The position numbers were made by a program, and so were the translations under genes. The notes under the pieces were generated by a model. The model was not told the DNA's origin, made no database searches, and saw nothing but the letters and a program-made list of their open reading frames with translations. Of a stretch of DNA of 10,418 nt, positions 1 through 10,418 are shown in pieces (the stretch's first letter is position 1; every line of letters starts with the position of its first letter). Source of the stretch: an uncultured Flavobacteriales bacterium (GTDB taxonomy: Bacteria > Bacteroidota > Bacteroidia > Palsa-965); assembly GCA_946478675.1 (NCBI GenBank), contig CAMLEF010000143.1, forward strand, positions 1 to 10,418, read 5' to 3'.

Positions 1-30
1 AAAAAGGCACCCATTACGGATGCCTTTTTT
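1..30 (-). terminator. Rho-independent terminator of the VCBS-repeat gene
   Basis: On the minus strand a 7-bp stem (GGCATCC with GGGTGCC, one G-U pair) closes a 5-nt loop (plus-strand arms 6-12 and 18-24). The stem is flanked by A and T runs, so the transcript ends in five U residues. It lies about 20 bp downstream of the stop codon at 52. Read on the plus strand the stem has a C-A mismatch, so it fits the minus-strand gene better, although the symmetric A/T runs could make it work both ways. Confidence 0.78.
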
Positions 31-51
31 CATTGGAAAAAATCTTCAGTC

Positions 52-1866
52 TTATTCCACCATCAATCGCTCCGTAGCGATGCGCTGGTCTTTGTTCTTC
101 ACTTCGATCATGTAGAGGCCGCTGGTGAGGATGTCACTGCTGACTTCGATGATCGACTGCTGGAGCGCCTGCTGCGAGAACACGAGCTTGCCGTTGATGT
201 CGTAGATGTTCATCGACAGGTTGTTCAGTCCGTACTGAGCGAAGTTGTTGAGGTGGATGTAGGTGTTGTTGCCTGCCGCAACCGGGTTCGGAGCTACGCC
301 GATCGACAGCGCGTTCTGCGGAATGTTGTGCGTAGCCAGCGGCGACTGTCCTTCGTTCACCGTGTATTCCATGTCGCCGTTGAGGCCGAGCATATGATCG
401 ACTACGCCCGACGGCCAGATGATCACGAGGCTGTCGAGGGAAGTGGCGGCGCCGAGGCCGAAGTACAGCGAGAGCGAGTTCTGCAGGCCGTAACCTTCGC
501 CGGAGCGCACTTCACGCACCTGCACGCCCCACGATCCGTAGATCTTCATGATGGCGCCGATACCGTTTTTGTTCGACATGCCGGGAGTCGCGCCGCCCAC
601 GAGGTTGAATTTCACCCAATGGTTGCCGTTGCCCGCGCTGGCGTTCATCCAGACGTGGTCGTTCCTGCTGGTGGATGCGGTGTTGTAGAGGCTCGCGTAT
701 GAAGCGTAAACGTCGAGGAAGCCGTCACCGTTCAGGTCGCCGACGCCCTGGCCGCGGATGTAACGCTGCGTGCTGCTCGTCGTGTAAGGGAACGGCTGCG
801 GCGTAACCAGCGTGAACGTACCATTGCCGTTGCCGCGATAGAGATAGTGCGCGTCGCCCGTGATCAGCAGGTCGAGGAAACCGTCGTTGTCGAAATCGTG
901 GAAGCTGGCATTCTCGCCGAAGTAGGAAGTCGTAGTGGCAATACCGGAAGTCGCCATCACATTTGTGAAGACACCGTTGCCGTCGTTGATCATGAGCTTG
1001 CTGTTCACGTCGTAGTTGAGCACGAATGCATCCATGTCGCCGTCGTTGTCGATATCGCCCCAGGCCGTGCTCCAGCCCTGTGCGCCGTCGCGAAGACCGG
1101 TCCAGTTGGTAACATCCTGCGTGTAGGTGCCGTTGCCGTTGTTGATGAACACCTGGTCGATGCGGCGCGGATCGGTATTGCTGGAGATGCTCTGGCGGCA
1201 ATGCGTGATCATCAGGTCAACGAGGTTGTCGTTGTTGACGTCGGTCCAGATGGAAGCGTAGTTGCCGCTGTTGGAATCCGGGTCCATCAGGATCGGGAAC
1301 TGCGAAAGCGGCATCACCGACTGGTCGAATACCCAGCCGCCGGAAGTGCCGTTGCCCATATAGACTTTCGGCTTGCCGGTATCGTGGCAGATGAAAACAT
1401 CGAGAAAACCGTCGTTGTCGATGTCGGCGAAGTTGCAGCCCTGCGTGAAGACGCTGCCGCCGCCGTACGACGTGGTCATGTTTTGCAGCGTGAAAGAGCC
1501 GGCGGCATTCGACGTGAGCAGGTAGCCGTTGGAGCTGCTGCCCTGGAAAACGTCATTGTAACCGTCGTTGTTGTAATCGCCCACGCATAAGGCCCACGGC
1601 GTGCCGAAAGAACCGGTGTTGTAACGGACTTCCGTAAAAGCGGCGTTCGGCGCATTCTGGAACTCGAGGAACATTTTTTTGTTGGCGCTGTCGCGGACGA
1701 TATCGTCTTTGAAGTCGCCGTTCATATCGCAAACTCCGACCGCGTTACCGCTGTGAAACGTCGACGACGGCAGCAACGACGTCTGGTCGGTAAAAGGAGA
1801 AGCGATCTGGGCGCTCATGGCGAAAGGGAGCAGGCCGGCAGAAAGCAGAAGTAGCTGTTTTTTCAT
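52..1866 (-). CDS. Secreted FG-GAP/VCBS-repeat protein with ASPIC/UnbV domain and T9SS sorting signal
   Basis: This 604-residue protein starts with a clear signal peptide (KK, hydrophobic stretch, AMSAQ, about residues 1-20). It then carries seven FG-GAP/VCBS calcium-binding loops of the type DxNxDGxxD, near residues 47, 97, 148, 209, 271, 324 and 377, which predict a beta-propeller. Residues about 415-500 match the ASPIC/UnbV (CRTAC1-like) domain, with the hallmark WPSG at 484-487. The C-terminal ~85 residues (from about APNPVAAG, 525) are a T9SS type A sorting domain, with the usual YDINGK and SGLYMIEV patterns. The protein should be exported by Sec, carried across the outer membrane by the type IX system and released or attached at the surface. 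Its ligand or role cannot be read from the sequence; such proteins often take part in adhesion or carbohydrate interactions. It has its own terminator and appears unrelated to the respiratory genes that follow. Confidence 0.93.
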   Translation of the reverse strand: MKKQLLLLSAGLLPFAMSAQIASPFTDQTSLLPSSTFHSGNAVGVCDMNGDFKDDIVRDSANKKMFLEFQNAPNAAFTEVRYNTGSFGTPWALCVGDYNNDGYNDVFQGSSSNGYLLTSNAAGSFTLQNMTTSYGGGSVFTQGCNFADIDNDGFLDVFICHDTGKPKVYMGNGTSGGWVFDQSVMPLSQFPILMDPDSNSGNYASIWTDVNNDNLVDLMITHCRQSISSNTDPRRIDQVFINNGNGTYTQDVTNWTGLRDGAQGWSTAWGDIDNDGDMDAFVLNYDVNSKLMINDGNGVFTNVMATSGIATTTSYFGENASFHDFDNDGFLDLLITGDAHYLYRGNGNGTFTLVTPQPFPYTTSSTQRYIRGQGVGDLNGDGFLDVYASYASLYNTASTSRNDHVWMNASAGNGNHWVKFNLVGGATPGMSNKNGIGAIMKIYGSWGVQVREVRSGEGYGLQNSLSLYFGLGAATSLDSLVIIWPSGVVDHMLGLNGDMEYTVNEGQSPLATHNIPQNALSIGVAPNPVAAGNNTYIHLNNFAQYGLNNLSMNIYDINGKLVFSQQALQQSIIEVSSDILTSGLYMIEVKNKDQRIATERLMVE

Positions 1867-2036
1867 TTGGTGTGTTGTTTGGAAATACGAGATTAGGAAA
1901 TAATTCCCGCAAATTCAAGGGGTTGGCTGCAAATAAGCAGGCGCCGGCCGCTCGCCCCGGACGGTCGCAAAACAGGAGAAAATATGTGCGGTAAAGCATG
2001 CTGGCCCGGCATGAAGCTCTTCAGCAGGCCACGGAT

Positions 2037-2495
2037 TTACACCCAGAATTCATCCGGCCAGTTCTCGCATTCATTGGATGCTTCGTGCGCAAGCTGTTCC
2101 CCGAGGATCGTTACCTGTTCGGGTGTGATCACGGCCTGGATCTCCCCGAAGAGCTCCCGTTCTTCGAAACGAATATGCCGTTCCAGTTCTTCTTCGATCA
2201 GCATCACGGCCTTCAGCTCGTCATCGGTTTTGGTAAAGAGCCGTGTCAGCCGCAGGTGCTGTTGCCGGGCTTTTTTGATGAAAGGGTGAAGGTTGCCCAG
2301 GAGCGGGAACAGGAATTGCTCCTCTTCCTGGAAATGCGGCAGCAGGTGGTGCGAGTAGAAATGATCGCAATACGCTTTGATGCGCAGCGGGGCAATTCCC
2401 TTGCGAAGCCCCTGCCGGATCTTCCAGCAAAGGAGCAGGCCGTGGTGGTGCTCGTGGCTCAGTGGCCGCAGCACTTTATTTCGTTTGATCGGCAT
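2037..2495 (-). CDS. Small hemerythrin-domain protein
   Basis: This 152-residue soluble protein has no signal peptide and the histidine/glutamate pattern of a four-helix hemerythrin di-iron site. Candidate ligands are the cluster SHEHHH at 13-18, H54 with E58 (HFQEE, followed by FLFP), H80 (QQH), and H107 with E111 (HIRFEE, followed by LF). Bacterial proteins of this class bind O2 or NO at a non-heme di-iron centre; the exact role here is inferred. Its ATG lies inside the end of ric (20-nt overlap), so the two are almost certainly translated from one mRNA. With ric upstream and an Rrf2 regulator divergent, a part in NO or oxygen handling, or in delivering or sensing O2/NO for the same regulon, is the best guess. 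No convincing terminator was seen in the 170 bp downstream; a 5-bp hairpin near 1997-2013 lacks a U-tract. Confidence 0.85.
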   Translation of the reverse strand: MPIKRNKVLRPLSHEHHHGLLLCWKIRQGLRKGIAPLRIKAYCDHFYSHHLLPHFQEEEQFLFPLLGNLHPFIKKARQQHLRLTRLFTKTDDELKAVMLIEEELERHIRFEERELFGEIQAVITPEQVTILGEQLAHEASNECENWPDEFWV

Positions 2496-3225
2496 CGGCT
2501 AATTTGCTTTCAAGAGCGGTGGCACGGGGAAAAAGAATGTTATTCTCGAGATGAATGTGCAGGTGCAGGTCCTTCTCGAACTCATCCATCAGCGCAAAAG
2601 CGGTCCGGTACGTGTTGCATCCGTCGGGCGGCACAGTGTAATTGCTGCTAATGGCTCTCATCTGGCGGAAACGTTCGCCTTCGGTATCGTGCTCCGCGGT
2701 CATCGCTTCCACCGGGTTACGGATGGTGCCGAAGCCGGGACGCTGCAGCGGTTTGTTCTGGTTACGCGCCGCCACCATCCGGCGGATATAAGGGAAAAGC
2801 AGCAGCTCTTCTTTCTTCATATGCATGGCCAGCTCACCGGCGCTTTTTTCGAAAAGGTTTTTCAGCAGGTGAAGTTCCGCGTGCGCATCGCCATGCACGT
2901 CGCAGATTCGCACGAGATAGGTACGAATCTGAGGAATGGCGGCTTCGGTATAGCGATGATGTTTTTCTTCGATATGGTCCGCAAGCCGGTCGAGCGGCCA
3001 GTGCGCGAAATCGGGTACGGTAGGATCTTCCTCGCCGCCGACCGCCTGTTTCAACGCTTCTTCCAGCGCGCCCCGGTCGATCTTCGCGTCTTTACAAATC
3101 TCAGCCAGCGAACGATTCCCGTTACAGCAGAAGTCGATACCGAAGCGTTGAAATACATCCGCGGTGCGGTAATCGCCGGCGACGATCTCGCCGACGGTCA
3201 TTTCGGGTAGGGAAGAATGATCCAT
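2476..3225 (-). CDS. ric: Iron-sulfur cluster repair di-iron protein RIC (ScdA/YtfE family)
   Basis: This 249-residue cytoplasmic protein has both RIC-family domains. Residues ~8-65 are the ScdA_N (DUF542) domain with the signature GIDFCCNG (C33, C34). Residues ~75-235 are the hemerythrin-like di-iron domain, with H84, H135 and E139 (HMKKE), H179 (AEHD), and H223 and E227 (HIHLENNILFP) matching the ligand pattern of E. coli YtfE. Length and domain order are normal. RIC proteins repair Fe-S clusters damaged by nitric oxide or oxidants and are typically repressed by NO-sensing regulators such as NsrR. The gene diverges from an Rrf2-family regulator, with a perfect palindrome between them, which fits that control. 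The start at 3225 gives the usual short N terminus before the DUF542 domain. The gene overlaps the hemerythrin gene downstream by 20 nt, so the two form an operon. Confidence 0.93.
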   Translation of the reverse strand: MDHSSLPEMTVGEIVAGDYRTADVFQRFGIDFCCNGNRSLAEICKDAKIDRGALEEALKQAVGGEEDPTVPDFAHWPLDRLADHIEEKHHRYTEAAIPQIRTYLVRICDVHGDAHAELHLLKNLFEKSAGELAMHMKKEELLLFPYIRRMVAARNQNKPLQRPGFGTIRNPVEAMTAEHDTEGERFRQMRAISSNYTVPPDGCNTYRTAFALMDEFEKDLHLHIHLENNILFPRATALESKLADADQTK

Positions 3226-3281
3226 TGTCTTTTTTTTGAGCGGTTGACAGATGCGGCATATCTGTAGCGCGAAAGCCTCAT

Positions 3282-3289
3282 CGAAGGTA
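3282..3289 (-). promoter_or_regulatory. Possible -7 element of the ric promoter
   Basis: Read on the minus strand, TACCTTCG matches the Bacteroidetes -7 consensus TAnnTTTG at five of the six fixed bases. It lies about 57 bp upstream of the ric start and 6 bp from the edge of the 24-bp palindrome. The expected -33 region therefore falls inside the palindrome, and a repressor bound there would block transcription. The single-motif match makes this tentative. Confidence 0.4.
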
Positions 3290-3295
3290 AAATTT

Positions 3296-3319
3296 ATTTC
3301 GGATAATATTATCCGAAAT
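3296..3319. promoter_or_regulatory. Perfect 24-bp palindrome, probable operator between ric and the Rrf2 gene
   Basis: The arms ATTTCGGATAAT and ATTATCCGAAAT are exact reverse complements with no spacer. The palindrome lies in the divergent region, over the predicted -33 positions of both promoters. Rrf2-family regulators bind as dimers to such sites and commonly regulate themselves, so the regulator encoded immediately downstream is the obvious candidate ligand; that link is inferred. The inner half-sites GGATAA/TTATCC recur in a second inverted repeat upstream of the oxidase genes. Confidence 0.75.
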
Positions 3320-3329
3320 TAAAAAGATA

Positions 3330-3337
3330 TATCTTTG
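3330..3337 (+). promoter_or_regulatory. Bacteroidetes-type -7 element of the Rrf2 gene promoter
   Basis: TATCTTTG is a full match to the Bacteroidetes sigma-ABfr -7 consensus TAnnTTTG and is followed by C, as is common. It lies 19 bp upstream of the regulator's ATG, giving a short leader. The corresponding -33 region is covered by the palindrome at 3296-3319, an arrangement that fits autorepression. Confidence 0.65.
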
Positions 3338-3356
3338 CGCCACCAACAAGCACAGG

Positions 3357-3791
3357 ATGTTTTCCAAAGCATGTGAATACGGGATACGCGCTGCAATCTA
3401 TATTGCGGAACAATCGAGGGAAGGATTGCGTGTCAACCTGAAGGATATTTCCAGCCAGATCGATTCACCGGAAGCTTTTACCGCGAAGATCCTGCAGCAA
3501 TTGGCGAAAAGCGGCATCGTCACTTCCATCAAAGGGCCTGCGGGCGGCTTCGAAATAGCGCCTGCGAAGATGGAGAAGATTCGTCTCAGCCAGGTTGTTT
3601 CCGCAATCGACGGCGACGAAGTCTACACGGCCTGCGGGCTGGGGTTCAGGGAATGCTCGGCGCGCCAGCCCTGCCCGATGCACCACAAATTCAAAAAAAT
3701 CCGCAATGATCTCCGGCAAATGCTCGAAGGCACCACGCTGTTCGAGTTGTCTTCCGGCACCAAAAAAGGGTTGACCTTTCTCAAGCGCTAA
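3357..3791 (+). CDS. Rrf2-family transcriptional regulator with Fe-S-type cysteine triad (NsrR/IscR-like)
   Basis: This 144-residue protein has the normal Rrf2 length. The N-terminal winged helix-turn-helix begins MFSKACEYGIRA, contains the recognition region around residues 28-52, and has the conserved wing KGPAGGF (59-65). C93, C100 and C106 form a C-x6-C-x5-C triad in the loop where IscR, NsrR and RsrR bind an Fe-S cluster, followed by the usual C-PMHH/K-dimer helix. The spacing differs from the C-x5-C-x5-C of IscR and the C-x4-C-x5-C of E. coli NsrR, so the sensed signal cannot be assigned by motif alone. Its neighbours (ric, hemerythrin, cbb3-like oxidase, truncated hemoglobin) point to NO or redox sensing. 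It is divergent from ric and heads the oxidase gene row, and probably controls both through the two GGATAA/TTATCC palindromes. Confidence 0.9.
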   Translation: MFSKACEYGIRAAIYIAEQSREGLRVNLKDISSQIDSPEAFTAKILQQLAKSGIVTSIKGPAGGFEIAPAKMEKIRLSQVVSAIDGDEVYTACGLGFRECSARQPCPMHHKFKKIRNDLRQMLEGTTLFELSSGTKKGLTFLKR

Positions 3792-3806
3792 AAAATTTTA
3801 GTCCTA

Positions 3807-3836
3807 TTAAGGATAAAAAGGTCTTTTTATCCTTAA
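3807..3836. promoter_or_regulatory. 30-bp inverted repeat upstream of the oxidase genes, probable second operator
   Basis: Two 14-bp arms (TTAAGGATAAAAAG and CTTTTTATCCTTAA) are exact reverse complements around a central GT. The repeat begins 16 bp after the Rrf2 stop and ends 26 bp before the preferred oxidase start. It shares the GGATAA/TTATCC half-sites of the palindrome at 3296-3319, but here they are 10 bp apart rather than 2 bp. A terminator is less likely, because the T-run is inside the stem and the sequence after it (AATGC) is not U-rich. No good TAnnTTTG element was found nearby, so it is unclear whether a separate promoter starts here or whether the repeat modulates read-through from the regulator gene. 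Confidence 0.65.
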
Positions 3837-3862
3837 TGCACCACCTCAATTCAAATTCAATT

Positions 3863-5599
3863 ATGGAAAAGCGGGAATTACTGAGCGAGTCGGGCGTGAT
3901 CATTACGATCATACTCGTGATGATACCGATACTCGCGGGGGCAACGATAGCGATCGTAAAATCGTTCGGGTTGATCAGGAGATTTCGCCAGCAGAAAGCG
4001 CTGGAGGAATTGCGGGAACGGCTGGCCGCTATGCCGGCGGAAGAAGTGGCGGAGATGGAGAAGCGAAAGCAGGAGCAGGCGTATGTCGTTCCCCCGCGGG
4101 CGCTCAGCGGAGAAGATAATCCGGTCGACCGGAAAGGTCTTGTGCAGCGCGTGATGCAGGAGGACATCCGTCTTTTCGAAGCAAAAAAGAAAAGCCAGAA
4201 GCGACCGCCGGTTCCGCCGGAGCTGGCGAAGCTGGTGCTCTGGTACCTGGGCACAGCGGTTTTCTGGTTGGTTTTCGGAACAACTGCGGGCGAATATCTC
4301 GGGATAAAATTCAGCCGGCCCGATATCGATCATATCAGCTGGCTGAGCTTCGGCCGGTTGCGCCCGGTGCACACGAACGCGGTTTTTTGGGGATGGGCAT
4401 CGCTGGCGATGGTGGGACTGGGTTATTACGTCGTGTCGCGCGTCAGCAATGCGCCGGTGGCGAGCATTCGTCGCGGCTACCGTTCACTGATCAGCATGAA
4501 TGCGGCGGTGGTGCTGGGCTCGGTGCTGCTGATGGCCGGGATAAACAACGGGGGAGGCGAGTACCGCGAATACATCTGGCCGGTGATGGGCCTTTTCGGC
4601 TACGGCGTCGTGCTCTCGCTGGCTAATTTCATTCAAACGATTGCACGGCGAACGACGCGCGAGATTTACGTTTCCAACTGGTATATCGTATCCGCGATGA
4701 TGTTCCTGCTCGTGATCGCCTTCGTCGCTTACTGGCCCGGCTGGCAAACGGGGCTGGGAGAGTCGATCGTCCAGGGATATTACATGCACCAGGGCGTGGG
4801 CATGTGGTTCATGTTCTTCAACCTCGGCCTGATGTATTATTTCCTGCCGCAGCAGCTGAACAAGCCGATCTATTCCTACGGCATCGGTGTGCTCGCATTC
4901 TGGACGCAGATTCTTTTTTACTCCGTGATCGGCACACACCATTTTATTTTCAGCGCGATTCCGTGGTGGTTGCAAACGGTGGCCATCATCGGCAGCGTGG
5001 GCATGATCATTCCCGTCACGGCGGGCACGACGAATTTCCTCATGACGTTCAAGGGATCGTGGAGCAAGATCGCGAGCAGTTATACGCTTCCGTTTTATCT
5101 CGTCGGCATCATCTTTTATTTCACCGGGTCGATGCAGGGAACGGCAGAAGCGTTCCGTTTCACCAACCAGGCCTGGCACTTTACCGATTTTACCGTAGCG
5201 CATTCGCACCTGACGATGTACGGCATCATCAGCTTCATGCTCTGGGCGTTTATTTATGCGCTGGTGCCGCGGCTCACCGGGAAGGAACCTCCGCAGGTGA
5301 TGGTCGGCATTCATTTCTGGCTGGCGTTGACGGGGCTGCTTTTTTACACGATCCCGCTGATGATCGGCGGCACGTTGAAAGGACTGTCGTGGATGGATGG
5401 AAAGCCGTTCATCGAAAGTGTCCGGCTCATGGCCCCTTACTGGCTGTGGCGCGCCATAGGAGGAACGCTGATGTGGCTGTCGCACCTGGTGTTCGCCTAC
5501 AACTTCTGGCGCATGGTAGCAAAACGAAACGAAATCCATCTTCCGTCAACCGCGGCTGAAATGCTGGCGGCGCGTGAAGAAGCAATTACACAATCCTGA
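3863..5599 (+). CDS. ccoN: cbb3-type (C-family) heme-copper oxidase subunit I with N-terminal extension
   Basis: This 578-residue membrane protein is the catalytic subunit of a terminal oxidase reducing O2 at a heme b3-CuB centre. CcoN ligands are visible: H170 (RPVHTNAV) and H449 for low-spin heme, H447 (AHSH) for high-spin heme, and H309 (YYMHQGVG) with H359 and H360 (GTHH) for CuB. Y353, six residues before H359, sits where the cross-linked tyrosine of cbb3 oxidases lies. The FeB glutamates of NorB are absent (G313 replaces the first, four residues after the CuB histidine), which favours oxidase over NO reductase. An N-terminal membrane helix (~10-33) and a charged segment (~38-118) come before the normal core; ordinary CcoN is about 475 residues. 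The start at 3863 is preferred because the in-frame ATG at 3836 overlaps the inverted repeat. The diheme subunit follows after 10 nt. Confidence 0.9.
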   Translation: MEKRELLSESGVIITIILVMIPILAGATIAIVKSFGLIRRFRQQKALEELRERLAAMPAEEVAEMEKRKQEQAYVVPPRALSGEDNPVDRKGLVQRVMQEDIRLFEAKKKSQKRPPVPPELAKLVLWYLGTAVFWLVFGTTAGEYLGIKFSRPDIDHISWLSFGRLRPVHTNAVFWGWASLAMVGLGYYVVSRVSNAPVASIRRGYRSLISMNAAVVLGSVLLMAGINNGGGEYREYIWPVMGLFGYGVVLSLANFIQTIARRTTREIYVSNWYIVSAMMFLLVIAFVAYWPGWQTGLGESIVQGYYMHQGVGMWFMFFNLGLMYYFLPQQLNKPIYSYGIGVLAFWTQILFYSVIGTHHFIFSAIPWWLQTVAIIGSVGMIIPVTAGTTNFLMTFKGSWSKIASSYTLPFYLVGIIFYFTGSMQGTAEAFRFTNQAWHFTDFTVAHSHLTMYGIISFMLWAFIYALVPRLTGKEPPQVMVGIHFWLALTGLLFYTIPLMIGGTLKGLSWMDGKPFIESVRLMAPYWLWRAIGGTLMWLSHLVFAYNFWRMVAKRNEIHLPSTAAEMLAAREEAITQS

Positions 5600-5609
5600 G
5601 CGAAGAACG

Positions 5610-6602
5610 ATGAGCTTTTTCAATAATCACCGGACACTGTTCGGTACAGCTTTGGGGCTGTTCGTCACACTTACCCTGTTTGTTGCGCTTATCCCGGCCT
5701 TGGTCAACCAGCGCGAAAATGCACCGTTGCCGGGCGCTGTTCCCCTGAGCGCGGATGCGGCAGCCGGGAAAAAAGTTTTTATCGCCAACGGCTGCGTCGC
5801 CTGTCATTCCCAGCAGGTGAGAAATATCGACATGGACAGGATGTGGGGAAGCCGGCCCGGCATTGCGGCGGATTATGCAGGCAATACGCGCATCGATTTC
5901 TGGCGCAATACCGCCACGCTCATGGGCACCGAACGGACGGGCCCCGACCTGACCGACGTCGGCAACCGCCAGCCGGGCCTGGAGTGGAACCTGATCCATC
6001 TTTACCAGCCGAGATCGGTGGTAGCTGCTTCGGTGATGCCCGCTTACCCGTGGCTGTTCGAAATTAAAAGCGCGCCGGCAAAAGGAGATGTCGTGGTGAC
6101 GGTGCCCGCTGCCTTCCGCACGGATACCAACGGCACGATCGTCGCCACGAAGGAAGCGCTGCAACTCGTGGCCTACCTGCAGAGCCTGAAACAGGTGCCG
6201 CTTCCCGACGGAACGCCCGCGCCGGAATTTTTGTACCGCAGGCAAGCGCCGGTAACCGCGCAGAACAATCTTCCGGATGGCCGCGAGCTGTATGCCGCCA
6301 ATTGCCAGAGCTGCCACCAGGAAAACGGCGAAGGGCTTAAAGGAGCTTTCCCTCCGTTGAAAGGAAGTCCCATCGTTACGGGCGACAGCCTGCAATTGTA
6401 CGTCACCATCATTATGAAAGGATACGACCCGCGCCCGGAATATGCAACGATGCCCGCGGTCGGCACCAATAACAACCTTACGCCGGAAGAAGTAACCGCG
6501 ATTATGAATTACGAGCGCTCCAGCTGGGGAAACAAGGCGGCCCCGCTCACCGTGGACGAAATCAGGAAGATTATGGAAATGATACAATCCCCCAAACCAT
6601 GA
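5610..6602 (+). CDS. ccoO: Diheme oxidase subunit: CcoO-like domain fused to a CcoP-like cytochrome c domain
   Basis: This 330-residue protein is anchored by one N-terminal helix (~10-32) and carries two periplasmic heme c domains. The first is CcoO-like: CVACH at 62-66 followed by SQQVR, then RTGPDL (109-114), the HLYQPR motif (130-135) and axial M143 in SVMPAYPW. The second, after a linker near 195-222, is a class I cytochrome c domain of the kind found in CcoP: CQSCH at 232-236, then QENGEG, and axial M281 in ATMPAVG. It should pass electrons from a donor cytochrome c to the CcoN heme-copper site. Canonical cbb3 oxidases have CcoO and a diheme CcoP as separate proteins; here one heme domain seems to have moved onto CcoO and another to be missing. 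An upstream in-frame ATG at 5574 would overlap ccoN by 26 nt; 5610 leaves a short N-in tail before the anchor and is preferred. The stop overlaps the next start as ATGA. Confidence 0.88.
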   Translation: MSFFNNHRTLFGTALGLFVTLTLFVALIPALVNQRENAPLPGAVPLSADAAAGKKVFIANGCVACHSQQVRNIDMDRMWGSRPGIAADYAGNTRIDFWRNTATLMGTERTGPDLTDVGNRQPGLEWNLIHLYQPRSVVAASVMPAYPWLFEIKSAPAKGDVVVTVPAAFRTDTNGTIVATKEALQLVAYLQSLKQVPLPDGTPAPEFLYRRQAPVTAQNNLPDGRELYAANCQSCHQENGEGLKGAFPPLKGSPIVTGDSLQLYVTIIMKGYDPRPEYATMPAVGTNNNLTPEEVTAIMNYERSSWGNKAAPLTVDEIRKIMEMIQSPKP

Positions 6603-6883
6603 GAAAGTCCCGGAAGATTTTCCTGCTGTTTGTTTTGCCGGCGCTGTCCGTTTTGCCGCAGGCTGCGATTGCCTGTGAAGCCTGCCAGCGACAGCAGCCC
6701 CGCATTACCCGCGGCCTCACGCACGGCACAGGGCCCGAAAGCAACTGGGACTGGCTGATCGTTTCAGGAGTGACGCTGATCACCGTCGTTACGTTCGTGC
6801 TTGCCGTACGTTACCTCGCCCGTCCCGGCGAAAAGAATGTCACTCACATCAAGAACATCATAACTGCATTGGAAAATGAATGA
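6599..6883 (+). CDS. Small membrane protein with exported CxxC motif, oxidase-associated
   Basis: This 94-residue protein has an N-terminal signal sequence (~1-25), then CEAC (C26, C29) at the predicted mature N terminus, a short polar stretch with RGLTHGTGPESNWDW (38-52), one membrane helix (~52-72) and a basic cytoplasmic tail. The CxxC is not followed by H, so it is not a heme c site. The first cysteine sits directly after AIA, so lipidation is conceivable, but the lipobox is imperfect. It overlaps the diheme subunit by 4 nt (ATGA) and the next gene by 8 nt, so it is made with the oxidase. A small accessory subunit comparable in position to CcoQ, or a copper or thiol-redox assembly factor, is possible; no family is assigned with confidence. 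Confidence 0.75.
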   Translation: MRKSRKIFLLFVLPALSVLPQAAIACEACQRQQPRITRGLTHGTGPESNWDWLIVSGVTLITVVTFVLAVRYLARPGEKNVTHIKNIITALENE

Positions 6884-7280
6884 CGACGAAAACAAAGTGG
6901 TGCTTTTCATGGACAATGAAGAGCGGCCGTTCGCGGAATTGTCGACGCCGGTACAGTTCGAGCTGGATACGCAGAAGCTGACCGACGGCGAGCATTTGCT
7001 CCGGATCGTCAGCCGTTCTTCGCGCGGGCGGGAAGGTGTGCGGGAGGTTCGCTTTTTCGTGCGCAACGGCCCTGCCATTACCATCTCCGGGCTGAAGGAG
7101 AACGACGTGATCGACGGTGTGCTGCCGATCATGATCAACGCTTACGACAAAGGCAACCAGCAGAAGTTCATCATCGAAGGCAGCGAAACCCCGCAAAGCG
7201 TTCCCAGCTGGCTGTGGCTGCTGATCATCCTGTTCTCCGGCTGGGCGGCTTATTATGCCATTACTTATTTCCATTCGTAA
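6876..7280 (+). CDS. Ig-like domain protein with C-terminal membrane anchor, oxidase-associated
   Basis: This 134-residue protein has no signal peptide. Residues ~5-104 alternate strands and turns in a way that suggests one or two bacterial Ig-like beta domains (for example DGEHLLRIVSRSS, and EVRFFVRNGP before a second strand set). One helix at ~110-131 ends the protein. This anchor (VPSWLWLLIILF ... YYAITYF) resembles the CcoP N-terminal anchor, which has the pattern PxWWxxxF followed by aromatic residues. No heme motif is present. Overlap with the small CxxC protein (8 nt) ties it to the oxidase operon. One reading, inferred only, is that it supplies the CcoP membrane helix while the heme domain resides on the CcoO-like subunit. 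Topology is uncertain because the soluble part comes first without an export signal. Confidence 0.72.
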   Translation: MNDDENKVVLFMDNEERPFAELSTPVQFELDTQKLTDGEHLLRIVSRSSRGREGVREVRFFVRNGPAITISGLKENDVIDGVLPIMINAYDKGNQQKFIIEGSETPQSVPSWLWLLIILFSGWAAYYAITYFHS

Positions 7281-7300
7281 ACAAACCGGAAACCGATCTC

Positions 7301-7693
7301 ATGGAGAAGAAAGATATCACCACGCTGGAAGATGTTCGGACCCTGGTGAATTCGTTTTACAGCGATGTCCGCGAAGACGAGTTGCTCGCCGGCATTTTCA
7401 ACGAAGTGATCCGCGACCGCTGGCCGGAGCATCTTGAAAAAATGTACAGCTTCTGGCAGACGGTGCTGCTGGAGGAACATACGTATTACGGCAGCCCGTT
7501 TCCGCCGCACGCGAAGCTGAGCATCGAACAGCAGCATTTCGAACGATGGTTATTGCTGTTCGGAAAAACGATCGATACGCATTTCTCGGGCCCGCGCGCA
7601 GAAGAAGCGAAATGGCGCGCGGAAAAAATGGCGGAGATGTTCCTGCACAAGATCCGTTATTACCGTGATCATCCTACCCGGACGGTTTTATGA
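7301..7693 (+). CDS. Group III truncated hemoglobin
   Basis: This 130-residue protein is a single globin domain of the TrHb3 class, close in pattern to Campylobacter jejuni Ctb. Diagnostic positions are conserved: tyrosine B10 (Y20 in NSFY), distal histidine E7 (H44 in WPEH), proximal histidine F8 (H70 in PPHAKL) and tryptophan G8 (W83 in HFERWLLLF). The FWQTVLL stretch before F8 also matches the family. Group III globins bind O2 and NO tightly and in Campylobacter are induced by nitrosative stress and linked to low-oxygen respiration; a similar role is inferred here. The start at 7301 (MEKKDITTL) matches the family N terminus; longer in-frame starts run into the previous gene. It follows the Ig-like gene by 20 nt and overlaps the next gene by 4 nt (ATGA). 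Confidence 0.92.
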   Translation: MEKKDITTLEDVRTLVNSFYSDVREDELLAGIFNEVIRDRWPEHLEKMYSFWQTVLLEEHTYYGSPFPPHAKLSIEQQHFERWLLLFGKTIDTHFSGPRAEEAKWRAEKMAEMFLHKIRYYRDHPTRTVL

Positions 7694-8121
7694 CCAGTTG
7701 GATCACATCTTCCGCGGCATCGGCTGCAGCGCACATCTGGCTGGGTTTCGTTTGCGCCATCAGCTTCATGGAGGCGTGGCTGAAGTTTCGCGCGCGGGGC
7801 ATGACGGTGACGCTCGGACTTGAAGTCGGGAGACTGGTTTTTAAAGCGCTGAACCGGGTGGAATGGTGCTTCGCAGTGATCATCCTGCTTTATCTTCTAC
7901 TGTCGCGCAGCGCGGGCGAACTGCACACGTTGCCTTATTACATCGCTGCGGTGCTGTTGCTGCTGCAATCCCTATGGCTGCTGCCGGCGCTGGATGCACG
8001 GGTGGAGCAACTGCTGGCCGGGAAGTCCCTGCCGCCTTCACGACTGCATTTTTATTACGTCGGCATGGAAGTCGTGAAAACCATTGCACTGTTCATTTTC
8101 GGAATCCTCCTTTTTAACTAA
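7690..8121 (+). CDS. Four-helix membrane protein of unknown function
   Basis: This 143-residue hydrophobic protein has about four membrane helices (~12-30, 58-73, 80-100, 121-141). Polar residues lie within or at the ends of helices: H15 and E28 in helix 1 (HIWLGF...MEAW) and H120 and E127 in helix 4 (LHFYYVGMEV), with RVEW at the start of helix 2. Such pairs can bind heme or metal, but no known signature was recognised. It overlaps the truncated hemoglobin stop by 4 nt (ATGA) and lies 5 nt before the dioxygenase gene, so it is cotranscribed. Translational coupling suggests a functional link with the globin or oxidase; this is inference. It has no signal peptide beyond helix 1 and no cysteine pair. 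Confidence 0.75.
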   Translation: MTSWITSSAASAAAHIWLGFVCAISFMEAWLKFRARGMTVTLGLEVGRLVFKALNRVEWCFAVIILLYLLLSRSAGELHTLPYYIAAVLLLLQSLWLLPALDARVEQLLAGKSLPPSRLHFYYVGMEVVKTIALFIFGILLFN

Positions 8122-8126
8122 CCATT

Positions 8127-9038
8127 ATGGAACAAGAAGACATCATCCGCGCCATCGAAGAAAAGTATGTCGCGCTCGGCGAAAAACCCGCTACGTACCT
8201 CCAGGGATTGTTTCACGCACGGCCGCTCTGCTATTGGGACTACGTCGAAGTGGACACGCTGCTTTCATTGCAGAAGCCGCGCACCAACTTCAAGGATGAA
8301 GAAGTATTCATCATGTATCACCAGGTGACGGAGCTCGTGCTGAAACTGATGCTGCATGAGATCCGGCAGGTGGCGGGCAACCATGCGCCGAACGAAGAGC
8401 TCATCGTCTCCCGGCTCGATCGTCTCTGCCGCTATACAAACATGCTGATCACTTCCTTCAGCGTCATGAAAGACGGGATGAGTTATGTCGATTACAATCT
8501 TTTCCGCACGTCCCTCGCGCCGGCCAGCGGTTTTCAAAGCGTACAGTTCCGCTATATCGAATTGTACTGCACGCGCATCGCCAATCTCGTCAGCGAAGAA
8601 GGAAAGAACAAGCTGGGCGCTGATCCTTCCGAAGAAGAATGCCTCGCGCATATTTACTGGAAAAATGCGGGCATCAATCGCGCTACCGGGAAGAAGACGA
8701 TGACGCTGCAGCTTTTCGAAGAAAAATACCACGACGATCTTCTCCGGCTGGCGAAAGCGATCAAAGGAAATACGCTGGAGGATAAAGTGCTCGCCCTGCC
8801 CGGCATTTCTCCCCGCCTGCGTGAGAAGCTCCGCGAATTCGACAGGTTGTATAATGTCGAATGGCCGCTCGTGCATCTCGATACCGCGCGCCACTATCTC
8901 GACAGCAAAGGAGAAGCAAAAGCGGCTACCGGCGGATCGGACTGGAAGAAATACCTGCATCCGCAATCTCAGCAGCGCAAATTTTTCCCGACGCTCTGGA
9001 ACGCGGACGAAAACGAAGGCTGGGGAAAAACGTTGTAA
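8127..9038 (+). CDS. kynA: Tryptophan 2,3-dioxygenase
   Basis: This 303-residue soluble heme enzyme opens the indole ring of L-tryptophan with O2 to give N-formylkynurenine, the first step of the kynurenine pathway. Family landmarks are in order: the WDYVEVDTLLSLQ stretch (37-49), F61 and H65 in FIMYHQ (matching F51 and H55 of the Xanthomonas enzyme), R127 in FRTSLAPASGFQS (matching R117), the heme-ligand histidine H250 in PLVHLDTA (matching H240), and T268 in ATGGSDWKKYL (matching T254). The FFPTLW end is typical. The key residues are intact, so it should be active. It follows the membrane protein by 5 nt and precedes the cupin by 2 nt, at the end of a gene row otherwise devoted to respiration and NO. 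No other kynurenine-pathway gene is visible. Confidence 0.9.
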   Translation: MEQEDIIRAIEEKYVALGEKPATYLQGLFHARPLCYWDYVEVDTLLSLQKPRTNFKDEEVFIMYHQVTELVLKLMLHEIRQVAGNHAPNEELIVSRLDRLCRYTNMLITSFSVMKDGMSYVDYNLFRTSLAPASGFQSVQFRYIELYCTRIANLVSEEGKNKLGADPSEEECLAHIYWKNAGINRATGKKTMTLQLFEEKYHDDLLRLAKAIKGNTLEDKVLALPGISPRLREKLREFDRLYNVEWPLVHLDTARHYLDSKGEAKAATGGSDWKKYLHPQSQQRKFFPTLWNADENEGWGKTL

Positions 9039-9040
9039 CG

Positions 9041-9346
9041 ATGGAAACCACCCTCACACCCGTTGTCCTGCCCGTTTCCAAAGGCGAGCAGTTGAAAGTG
9101 CTCCAGGTAACCGGTAAAGCAGGCATGCGCATGCCCCGGCATTTTGCCACAGCAGAAGCGGTGCTCTTCATACAGGAAGGTGTTGCCACGCTTTTTCTCG
9201 AGGGCCAGGAACACCTGCTCAAAAAAGGAGATACGTTCATCATTCCCGCCGGCAAAATCCATTCGCTTCAGCTGAACTCCGGCTTCAGGGCCATGGTCAT
9301 TATGCCTGAAAATGCCGTTATCCGGTTTGACGATCATCCCGCTTAA
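9041..9346 (+). CDS. Small single-domain cupin protein
   Basis: This 101-residue protein is one cupin barrel. Motif 1 is degenerate (MPRHFATAEAVLFIQEG, with H34 and E39), lacking the second histidine of HxH; motif 2 is clear (KKGDTFIIPAGKIHSLQ, with H74). A three-ligand metal site (H34, E39, H74) is possible. The family is functionally broad, including oxygenases, isomerases and sensors, and the protein is too short for 3-hydroxyanthranilate dioxygenase, so its link with tryptophan breakdown is not established. The start at 9041 is 2 nt after the dioxygenase stop; a longer upstream frame overlaps that gene and is not cupin-like. It appears to be the last gene of the row; no clear terminator follows. 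Confidence 0.85.
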   Translation: METTLTPVVLPVSKGEQLKVLQVTGKAGMRMPRHFATAEAVLFIQEGVATLFLEGQEHLLKKGDTFIIPAGKIHSLQLNSGFRAMVIMPENAVIRFDDHPA

Positions 9347-9381
9347 GATCCGTTGCGCGGCAGCCGGCTTCACCAGAAATT

Positions 9382-9415
9382 TTTGAGCGTCCGGGACGCA
9401 TATTAATTATCTTTA
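9382..9415 (+). promoter_or_regulatory. Candidate promoter of the multiheme cytochrome gene with internal palindrome
   Basis: A TTTG (9382-9385) and a TATCTTTA (9408-9415, one mismatch to TAnnTTTG) are spaced 22 bp apart, close to the usual Bacteroidetes -33/-7 arrangement, and lie 20 bp upstream of the GTG start. Between them is GCGTCC-G-GGACGC (9387-9399), two exact 6-bp arms around one base. It could be an operator. It lacks the U-run expected if it were the terminator of the preceding cupin gene. Confidence 0.45.
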
Positions 9416-9435
9416 GAGGTCTAAACCTCCTCTTA

Positions 9436-10418
9436 GTGGTAAAAAATTACGCTTCGCGTTTCAAAGCGTTCCTGGTCGTCGGAATTGCGGTCATCGTGGT
9501 GGTTTTCGCCGCTACGTATTCCTCCAATACGGCGGAAGCCCGGACGTTTCATACGGCTTCCGAACGTGCGCGCCTGCACGATATGCTGCAGTCCCAGCCT
9601 TACGATACGAACACCTATTTCGCCACCGGCGGCCGGTGCAGCGGTTGCCACGGCCATGATCCTGCCGGCTTTTCGCTCATCACGCCGGCGGGTGTGGATG
9701 TGAATATCGCTGACGACTGGCAGGGAACGATGATGGCGAATTCCGCGAAGGATCCGCTCTGGCGCGCGAAGGTCAGCCATGAAATTCTCGTGAACCCGGG
9801 CCTGTCCGTGGAGATCCAGGATAAATGCACCCGCTGTCATGCGCCCACCGGCCACTTCGAGGCGATGTACCTCGGGCAGCCGCATTACAGCATGCAGCAG
9901 CTCGCCGCCGATACGTTCGGCATGGATGGCGTCAACTGCAGCGCCTGCCACCAGCAACAGGATACGCTCATGGGCCGCAATTTCTCCGGCGACCTGCACT
10001 ACCTGCAAAAACATGTTTACGGCCCGTACACCGATATCGTCAGCGCCGTGATGGAATTCTTCGTCCAGTTTACGCCCGAATACGGAAATCACATCACGCG
10101 TTCCGATGCCTGCGGCGGCTGCCATACGCTCATCACGCAAACCACCGATCTTTCCGGCAATCTCACCGGCGGCGAATACGTCGAGCAGGCGACTTACCAC
10201 GAATGGAAAAACTCCGCGTACAGCGATTCGCTCGTTGCCGGTTACCGCGCCTGCCAGGGTTGCCATATGCCCGCGCTGCCCGTCACCGACAGCATCAAGC
10301 TGGCCACGAACTACCCGTTCATTCCCGGCCGCACGCCGTTCTACCAGCATTTTCTCGTCGGCGGAAACGCGTTCATGCTGAAAATGCTGCAGGATAATAT
10401 GTCGGCCTGCGGTGTGAC
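9436..10418 (+). CDS. Membrane-anchored multiheme cytochrome c, partial (cut by window end)
   Basis: The reading frame is open from a GTG at 9436 to the window edge, giving 327 residues. An N-terminal uncleaved anchor or signal sequence (~10-28, AFLVVGIAVIVVVFAATY) comes before a periplasmic region with five CXXCH heme c sites: CSGCH (68-72), CTRCH (131-135), CSACH (168-172), CGGCH (226-230) and CQGCH (273-277). The stretch QATYHEWKNSAYSD (251-264) before the fifth site resembles spacers seen in cytochrome c554/octaheme-type proteins. It should be an electron carrier or multiheme reductase in the periplasm; the substrate is unknown because the rest is missing. No ATG lies upstream in frame, and the first internal ATG would remove the export signal, so GTG is the likely start. 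It lies 89 bp after the cupin with its own promoter-like motif, so it probably forms a new transcription unit. Confidence 0.87.
   Translation, partial: MVKNYASRFKAFLVVGIAVIVVVFAATYSSNTAEARTFHTASERARLHDMLQSQPYDTNTYFATGGRCSGCHGHDPAGFSLITPAGVDVNIADDWQGTMMANSAKDPLWRAKVSHEILVNPGLSVEIQDKCTRCHAPTGHFEAMYLGQPHYSMQQLAADTFGMDGVNCSACHQQQDTLMGRNFSGDLHYLQKHVYGPYTDIVSAVMEFFVQFTPEYGNHITRSDACGGCHTLITQTTDLSGNLTGGEYVEQATYHEWKNSAYSDSLVAGYRACQGCHMPALPVTDSIKLATNYPFIPGRTPFYQHFLVGGNAFMLKMLQDNMSACGV

Follow-up and report, generated by a model that had tools for sequence, protein, structure and literature searches.

A C-type heme-copper enzyme distinct by its residues from canonical cbb3 oxidases and NO reductases is linked to a predicted nitric oxide regulon in Bacteroidota

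We analysed a 10,418-nucleotide stretch of DNA from an uncultured Flavobacteriales bacterium (contig CAMLEF010000143.1, positions 1 to 10,418; hereafter the window), which carries a divergent gene cluster built around a CcoN-like heme-copper oxidase subunit I. Genes for the Fe-S repair protein RIC and for a hemerythrin-domain (HHE) protein on the minus strand diverge from a plus-strand operon encoding, in this order, an Rrf2-family regulator, the CcoN-like protein, a CcoO domain fused to cytochrome c, two small proteins of 94 and 134 residues, a group III truncated hemoglobin (trHb), a 143-residue membrane protein (mem143), a protein resembling tryptophan dioxygenase (TDO-like) and a cupin, with a palindrome lying between the two arms. 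We found that RIC, HHE, Rrf2 and trHb accompany this oxidase much more frequently than they do canonical CcoNO, and that sites like the palindrome precede nitrogen-oxide genes elsewhere in related genomes. We consider it probable that the cluster is a nitric oxide (NO)-responsive regulon whose C-type oxidase sustains O2 respiration under NO, perhaps consuming NO as well. A preliminary description of this DNA had proposed an NO/low-oxygen regulon around a cbb3-like oxidase rather than an NO reductase (NOR), and what it reported of the layout was borne out: RIC and HHE do face the rrf2 operon across a perfect palindrome, and the genes are as tightly spaced as it had said, with -8 to +20 bp separating consecutive genes of the stretch that runs from ccoN to the cupin gene, and 71 bp between rrf2 and ccoN.

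The neighbourhood comparison, which the preliminary description had asked for beforehand, began from a homologue scan of one genome per species (84,980 species), in which 218 stretches were confirmed. The best 80 of these (63-72% identity) were retained; 78 have a Bacteroidota taxon in their title, and the titles of the other two give Verrucomicrobia (L020) and only 'bacterium' (L024). In viral contigs no relative was found. With profiles built from the 80 related loci themselves, the oxidase was found beside ccoO–cytochrome c in 79 loci, the 94-residue and 134-residue genes in 77 each, rrf2 in 71, trHb in 56, RIC in 38 and HHE in 34, and more rarely beside mem143 (20), the TDO-like gene (12) and the cupin gene (8); plain BLAST with the window's proteins gave nearly identical counts, with 3 for the cupin. 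The 57 loci with at least 3 kb upstream and at least 7 kb downstream were then set against canonical CcoNO loci from 20 of the same genomes (flanks of about 8 kb, same profiles), 23 loci with short flanks being dropped. The results revealed rrf2 at 49, trHb at 41, RIC at 30 and HHE at 29 of the 57 loci, compared with 0, 1, 5 and 0 of the 20 control loci, where two of the five RIC matches were weak (22 bits). The association extends to L176-L179, which branch more deeply and have a shorter CcoN: RIC or a weak RIC-like gene (54-63 bits) lies nearby in three of these four loci and, in L179, RIC immediately precedes ccoN. In two Chitinophaga loci (L047 and L068), RIC–rrf2 is divergent from the oxidase operon and has a qNOR beside it, and in C. 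pinensis qNOR–RIC–Rrf2 adjoin the oxidase cluster; the phrase 'rather than a NO reductase' thus holds for the window but not for its relative L047, which has qNOR in the same cluster. The idea, raised by the Chitinophaga loci, that the oxidase is a mere companion of NOR was rejected, because only 14 of 40 carrier genomes have qNOR above cut-off.

The palindrome was the only perfect one of at least 16 bp in the window, and a perfect 24-mer was reached in none of 300 whole-window and none of 20,000 intergenic dinucleotide shuffles. Its centre precedes rrf2 by 50 bp and RIC by about 82 bp. From palindromes seen upstream in several related loci we derived the consensus RGAYAW-NN-WTRTCY, of which the window copy is GGATAA-TA-TTATCC. 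Counting the window, 28 of 68 regions ahead of rrf2 and 20 of 81 ahead of ccoN contain the consensus, as against 1 of 38 for RIC, 0 of 56 for trHb and 32 of 6,300 windows elsewhere. This enrichment is partly circular, because the pattern was chosen after viewing these regions, but the spacing is free of that problem: when sites were scored with a matrix derived from them, 31 of 38 upstream of rrf2 were centred 50-55 bp ahead of the gene, and 15 of 19 upstream of ccoN were centred 21-24 bp ahead of it. By its sequence and position, the palindrome is a conserved predicted operator at a near-fixed distance from rrf2. A possible second copy in the window, in the gap between rrf2 and ccoN, is weak alone, because 18 of 200 shuffles give two matches with at most one mismatch.

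The reach of this operator was examined in relatives of the window, using the 40 carrier genomes, which account for 40 of the 80 loci. A stricter pattern yielded 45 sites in 28 genomes, compared with 13 for the reversed pattern, and sorting by hand placed 22 of them at the oxidase cluster and 23 elsewhere. Nine of the 23 precede nitrogen-oxide genes, namely nirK twice (L139, L168), norC (L124), a cupin gene followed by qNOR (L123, 331 bp away), flavohemoglobin twice (L140, L148), a DUF2249–ScdA_N–hemerythrin fusion (L141), HHE (L146) and a divergent trHb/ferredoxin pair (L169), while three others precede Rrf2 genes. These sites before NO genes in relatives are the strongest evidence that NO, directly or via Fe-S damage, is the signal, and together with the gene linkage they make an NO regulon well supported. 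The low-oxygen half of the earlier proposal found no support and was not disproved.

The regulator itself fits such a role. It combines an Rrf2 domain with three clustered cysteines of the NsrR/IscR type, and the arrangement C93-X6-C100-X5-C106-xx-H109 did not vary among the 18 aligned sequences, one of which is the window's; the three cysteines pointed out earlier were thereby confirmed, and a fourth, C6, proved equally invariant. It is predicted to be an Fe-S-based NO sensor and repressor, and we infer that it carries an Fe-S cluster for which NO is the signal.

In sequence and fold the CcoN-like protein is closest to subunit I of cbb3 oxidases (3mk7, 9g6b, 9g83), and the seven best fold matches of its predicted model were all cbb3, in agreement with the earlier label 'cbb3-like'. 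It scored 232.2 bits against the ccoN model TIGR00780, whose cut-off is 583.15 bits, and the window's operon holds no gene for a separate diheme CcoP, CcoO being fused to one cytochrome c. All 81 family sequences keep the six histidine ligands of metal and heme (H60, H207, H257, H258, H345 and H347), Tyr317, E122, E125 and the helix VII tyrosine Tyr-II (Y353, equivalent to Y251), which is predicted to be cross-linked to a CuB histidine. Fixed in the same 81 sequences, and contrasted with eight of eight CcoNO proteins, are S240G, H243A, T321S, E323Q, W203G and W341F; Ser240 was retained in all 15 canonical sequences aligned. In seven more distant Bacteroidota variants S240G, T321S, E323Q and W203G hold throughout, and Tyr occurs at 341 in two, Gly at 243 in one and His at 237 in one. 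H243A was dropped as a diagnostic residue because this position is variable in alphaproteobacterial cbb3, three of which have Ser there.

These residues bear directly on the type of enzyme. A footnote to Table 2 of PMC3084760 gives the alternative C-type K-channel as Tyr-II, Ser and Tyr; both tyrosines are kept in the family, and Ser240 is Gly. Excerpts of the same paper mark NORs by the motifs H-X-Arom-X-E and HH-X-Arom-Arom-X17-E and by a distinctive loss of Tyr. Neither motif was present in any of the 81 sequences, and both were found in five of five qNOR and the cNOR control; the second motif alone discriminates, because the first was matched somewhere in seven of eight CcoNO proteins. With both tyrosines kept and both the Ser and the NOR motifs missing, the family, as judged from sequence, consists of C-type heme-copper enzymes distinct from both canonical cbb3 and NOR, and the retention of Tyr251 and the six histidines without the NOR motifs points to an O2 reductase rather than a NOR. 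A tree of 15 of the 81 sequences and the seven variants, with NORs as outgroup, supported the family at 99.9/100, joined it to a Paraburkholderia plasmid gene (75.4/94) and placed the two together as sister to canonical cbb3 (93.7/64). The plasmid gene (L131, 8794-10458, P. aromaticivorans pBN2) keeps Ser240, has Gln323 and Ser321, and lies among a CcoO-like gene, cytochromes c, a P-type ATPase and a molybdopterin oxidoreductase.

We then considered what the enzyme adds to its hosts. It is an additional enzyme, because all 40 carriers have another COX1-family gene and 36 have a CcoNO-type open frame of 705-765 residues (listing read by eye). One alternative is that it mainly reduces NO to N2O, which would make it a third type of NO reductase besides cNOR and qNOR, detoxifying NO or feeding clade II NosZ; this we regard as unlikely. 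Its membership of an NO regulon and its altered K-channel Ser are in keeping with such a function, and so are the genome inventories: NosZ was above cut-off in 24 of the 40 carriers, qNOR in 14 and cNOR in one (L124), and 25 carriers, including 14 of the 24 NosZ genomes, have neither NOR, cNOR having been read off the COX1-family listing and not searched with its own model. Co-occurrence was measured in the family of G010 (195 genomes, 30 with the oxidase and 165 without), which was used because too few genomes of the phylum of G002 (9 of 296 at E<=1e-100) have the oxidase. There, NosZ (E<=1e-100) was commoner in carriers, at 23 of 30 versus 71 of 165 (p 7e-4), as were RIC (E<=1e-30; 27 of 30 versus 84 of 165, p 4e-5), which speaks for the NO-responsive oxidase that we favour, and qNOR (7 of 30 versus 12 of 165, p 0.014), the p values being uncorrected for kinship among the genomes. 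Some NO reductase activity is also described for cbb3 enzymes, although excerpts of PMC9266656 and PMC8780969 present the activity of oxidases as low and its importance as limited 'unless NORs are absent', and by the former it is too low to matter much for defence. The conserved cross-link Tyr and the missing NOR motifs, in a superfamily where Tyr loss marks NORs (PMC3084760, in excerpt), argue against this function. So does the pattern of NO producers: NirK was above cut-off in five of the 40 carriers and reached 178-204 bits in three more, weak multicopper matches being set aside, and seven of these eight also have a canonical NOR (p 0.002, kinship uncorrected), indicating that NO producers do not rely on this enzyme as their NOR.

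An ordinary micro-oxic oxidase, linked to RIC, HHE and trHb through oxygen limitation and not through NO, seems to us still less probable. In its favour, enzymes of the cbb3 type generally have a high affinity for O2, which hemerythrins and globins bind too, and one of two FNR-like matches with one mismatch in the window lies before ccoN, at 3771-3784. Two or more such matches, however, arise in 68 of 200 shuffles, which is the level of chance; the operator is common to nirK, norC and flavohemoglobin genes in relatives; and 36 of the 40 carriers already have a CcoNO-type gene, with 20 such loci lacking most of the linkage. Least probable in our estimate is that Rrf2 senses Fe-S status or another oxidant within a general module for metal-centre repair and respiration, for although its best score among named equivalogs is to IscR (60.9 bits, cut-off 207.55, none being passed) and HTHP (hexameric tyrosine-coordinated heme protein), ferredoxin, DUF488 and TDO-like proteins recur beside the oxidase too, the operator targets outside the cluster include nirK, norC, flavohemoglobin and the cupin before qNOR.

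Several observations weigh against the NO-responsive oxidase that we favour. The regulator is far under the NsrR equivalog cut-off (38.2 versus 182 bits), and the CcoN model, on which any reading of S240G and E323Q would depend, is only of moderate confidence (pLDDT 69.9). Linkage is neither exclusive nor universal: RIC also lies near canonical CcoNO in those 5 of 20 control loci, and no trHb match was found at 24 and no RIC match at 42 of the 80 loci, some of which have incomplete flanks. At the matrix threshold 43 of the 80 related loci have no operator site. Among the 23 sites outside the cluster, four are uncertain (before YceI, DGC/DUF302 and a family-less membrane protein, and one without an assigned target) and seven look unrelated, three of these lying inside genes. 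Finally, the open-licence literature searched yielded no expression, binding or activity data for the cluster.

Under the reading of an NO-responsive respiratory regulon, the NsrR/IscR-like Rrf2 repressor, with its predicted Fe-S cluster on three cysteines and one histidine, would bind the GGATAA-TA-TTATCC site between both arms, overlapping the rrf2 promoter, and NO damage to the cluster would release it. The minus-strand arm would then yield RIC and the hemerythrin protein for Fe-S repair and di-iron NO/O2 chemistry, and the plus-strand arm the CcoN-like subunit, CcoO–cytochrome c and two small membrane subunits together with the group III globin, which would handle NO or O2. We infer that O2 is the substrate and that the oxidase tolerates NO: its most likely reaction is the reduction of O2 to water, with cytochrome c as electron donor and a proton route that would differ from that of canonical cbb3. 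Made on NO exposure, it would work while NO blocks the housekeeping aa3 and cbb3 oxidases, and it might also remove some NO. As the preliminary description proposed, the oxidase may be NO-tolerant or NO-consuming. A cbb3-like complex inside an NO regulon was unexpected, because the canonical cbb3 enzymes tested are strongly NO-inhibited (PMC9266656, in excerpt) and poor NO reductases, and here it stands beside, not instead of, the ordinary oxidases.

A more far-reaching possibility, which we put forward tentatively, is that many Bacteroidota have a second functional kind of C-type heme-copper enzyme, dedicated to NO, in which the oxidase Tyr was kept and the proton path rebuilt; it would either respire O2 while clearing bound NO to nitrite or act as the main NOR where NosZ occurs without a canonical NOR. 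The cluster offers a direct test of bacterial respiration under NO, it could help to explain how N2O-reducing Bacteroidota without canonical NOR handle NO, and its fixed swaps S240G and E323Q are selection-tested changes in the proton-path region of a C-type oxidase.

Table 1. Positions and supporting matches of the features in the window.
Feature	Position	Strand	Remarks
T9SS-sorted secreted protein, flanking gene	52-1866	-	
HHE hemerythrin-domain protein, 152 aa	2037..2495	-	PF01814 30.9 bits; 20-bp overlap with RIC
RIC/ScdA/YtfE di-iron Fe-S repair protein, 249 aa	2476..3225	-	TIGR03652; ScdA_N and Hemerythrin domains
Predicted operator, perfect 24-bp palindrome	3296..3319	.	core GGATAATATTATCC at 3301-3314
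TAnnTTTG, -7-like element before rrf2	3330..3337	+	presumed function; palindrome would cover the -33 region
Rrf2-family regulator, CX6CX5CxxH	3357..3791	+	PF02082 89.8 bits; TIGR00738 above cut-off
Possible degenerate second operator copy, 1 mismatch	3811..3824	+	in the rrf2-ccoN gap
C-type heme-copper oxidase subunit I (CcoN-like), 578 aa	3863..5599	+	COX1 270 bits; N-terminal helical extension
CcoO domain fused to one cytochrome c domain, 330 aa	5610..6602	+	FixO 91.3 bits; Cytochrom_C 69.4 bits; two CXXCH
Small membrane protein with CxxC, 94 aa	6599..6883	+	no Pfam/NCBIfam match
Ig-like domain with C-terminal TM helix, 134 aa, probable complex subunit	6876..7280	+	model pLDDT 64
Group III truncated hemoglobin	7301..7693	+	PF01152; nearest solved structure 2ig3
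Membrane protein (mem143), 143 aa	7690..8121	+	no Pfam/NCBIfam family match
Tryptophan-dioxygenase-like heme protein	8127..9038	+	PF03301 95 bits; partial match
Small cupin, last gene of the operon	9041..9346	+	Cupin_2 35.1 bits
Multiheme cytochrome c fragment, flanking gene	9436-10416		

The remaining features are listed in Table 1. TAnnTTTG before rrf2 is what we take to be the Bacteroidota -7-like promoter motif. RIC scored 223.8 bits against TIGR03652, above the cut-off of 204.7, and the trHb profile (13 sequences) had as its best structure the group III haemoglobin 2ig3 (E 8e-27; 97.1 bits, versus 27.8 for the next structure), so both earlier identifications were upheld. Two CXXCH are present in 78 of the 80 CcoO–cytochrome c sequences, the window's included; residues 214-322 of that protein match, in the PDB, alcohol dehydrogenase cytochromes and then mostly copper-nitrite-reductase-fused ones. 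Both cysteines of the 94-residue protein are invariant across 18 aligned sequences. The predicted structure of the 134-residue protein is of low confidence and gave no significant fold match, but its homologues in L176-L179 are fused to an additional cytochrome c domain, an arrangement suggesting that the protein belongs to the complex as a subunit. The match of the TDO-like protein to TIGR03036 reached 99.5 bits (cut-off 390.7) and was confined to residues 33-146; the protein may be another kind of heme enzyme that takes part in the response to NO. The two flanking genes have no homologue in the 80 related loci and are probably outside the module for that reason.

By clustering, with one representative identified each, further recurrent neighbours were a 2Fe-2S ferredoxin (32 loci), DUF488 (10), HTHP (6) and DUF2249 (6). 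The HTHP gene, for which the L010 protein alone was run against Pfam, occurs in L009, L010, L015, L019, L023 and L061, after the 134-residue gene in L015 and between ccoO–cytochrome c and the 94-residue gene in the other five. We also observed polytopic proteins of about 435 residues (L065, 12915-14216; L166, 3457-4773, minus strand) that lie close to a DUF2249 gene or follow an operator site; they have no Pfam match and look NnrS-like by eye. Single heme-copper-like proteins of 445-485 residues were seen in L126 (952-2289, minus strand), L127 (4994-6448, minus strand), L128 (5048-6382; 27 bits to ccoN), L129 (5003-6343) and L130 (4489-5928). They keep the HH pair and H345 and have Gly at the H207 position, Asn for Tyr251 and Met for H347; those of L127-L129 share a contig with a clade II NosZ gene, and in G038 and G039 an operator site lies directly after a gene of this type. 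They are possible unusual NO reductase-like enzymes. L125 (5653-7098) encodes a subunit I resembling the A/B families, by eye without a Tyr four residues past the helix VI His and with a cupredoxin-like frame just before it, possibly a CuA-type NOR.

Compared with canonical cbb3 (CcoNOQP, or in Bacteroidota a CcoNO fusion with CcoP), the window's complex shares the C-type fold, the six histidines, the helix VII Tyr, a CcoO-type subunit and, probably, cytochrome c as donor. It differs in belonging to a sister clade whose 81 sequences all have S240G, E323Q, T321S, W203G and W341F, in having one c domain fused to CcoO and no CcoP or CcoQ gene, and in adding two small membrane proteins and an NO-type operator. 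With cNOR and qNOR it has in common the superfamily, a shared NO regulon and, for qNOR in two Chitinophaga, adjoining genes, but the Tyr is present and the NOR motifs are missing. The proteobacterial NsrR regulon comprises an Rrf2-type Fe-S regulator and a palindromic operator, with RIC/YtfE, Hmp and globins. The predicted regulator type, the palindrome and the RIC and globin targets recur here, but the operator differs in sequence, the main operon encodes an oxidase complex and the Rrf2 protein falls below the NsrR cut-off.

We found no description of this cluster in the open-licence literature searched, yet the clade may have been sighted before: an excerpt of PMC5492636 cites Muntyan et al. 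2015 for a heme-copper 'unknown group' that lies apart from authentic cbb3, the latter having a 'mandatory Glu', and this group may coincide or overlap with the clade described here. In the window family E323 is Gln, and E122 and E125 are kept. The closest precedent by analogy is CcoN4/MpaR of P. aeruginosa, which excerpts of PMC10790758 describe as an orphan cbb3 subunit induced by cyanide under a GntR/PLP-type regulator. Both systems would join a specialised CcoN isoform to a respiratory poison, an adjacent regulator and a palindrome, but CcoN4, by the same excerpts, swaps into an ordinary cbb3, whereas the window cluster encodes what appears to be a whole separate complex with an Rrf2 regulator of its own.

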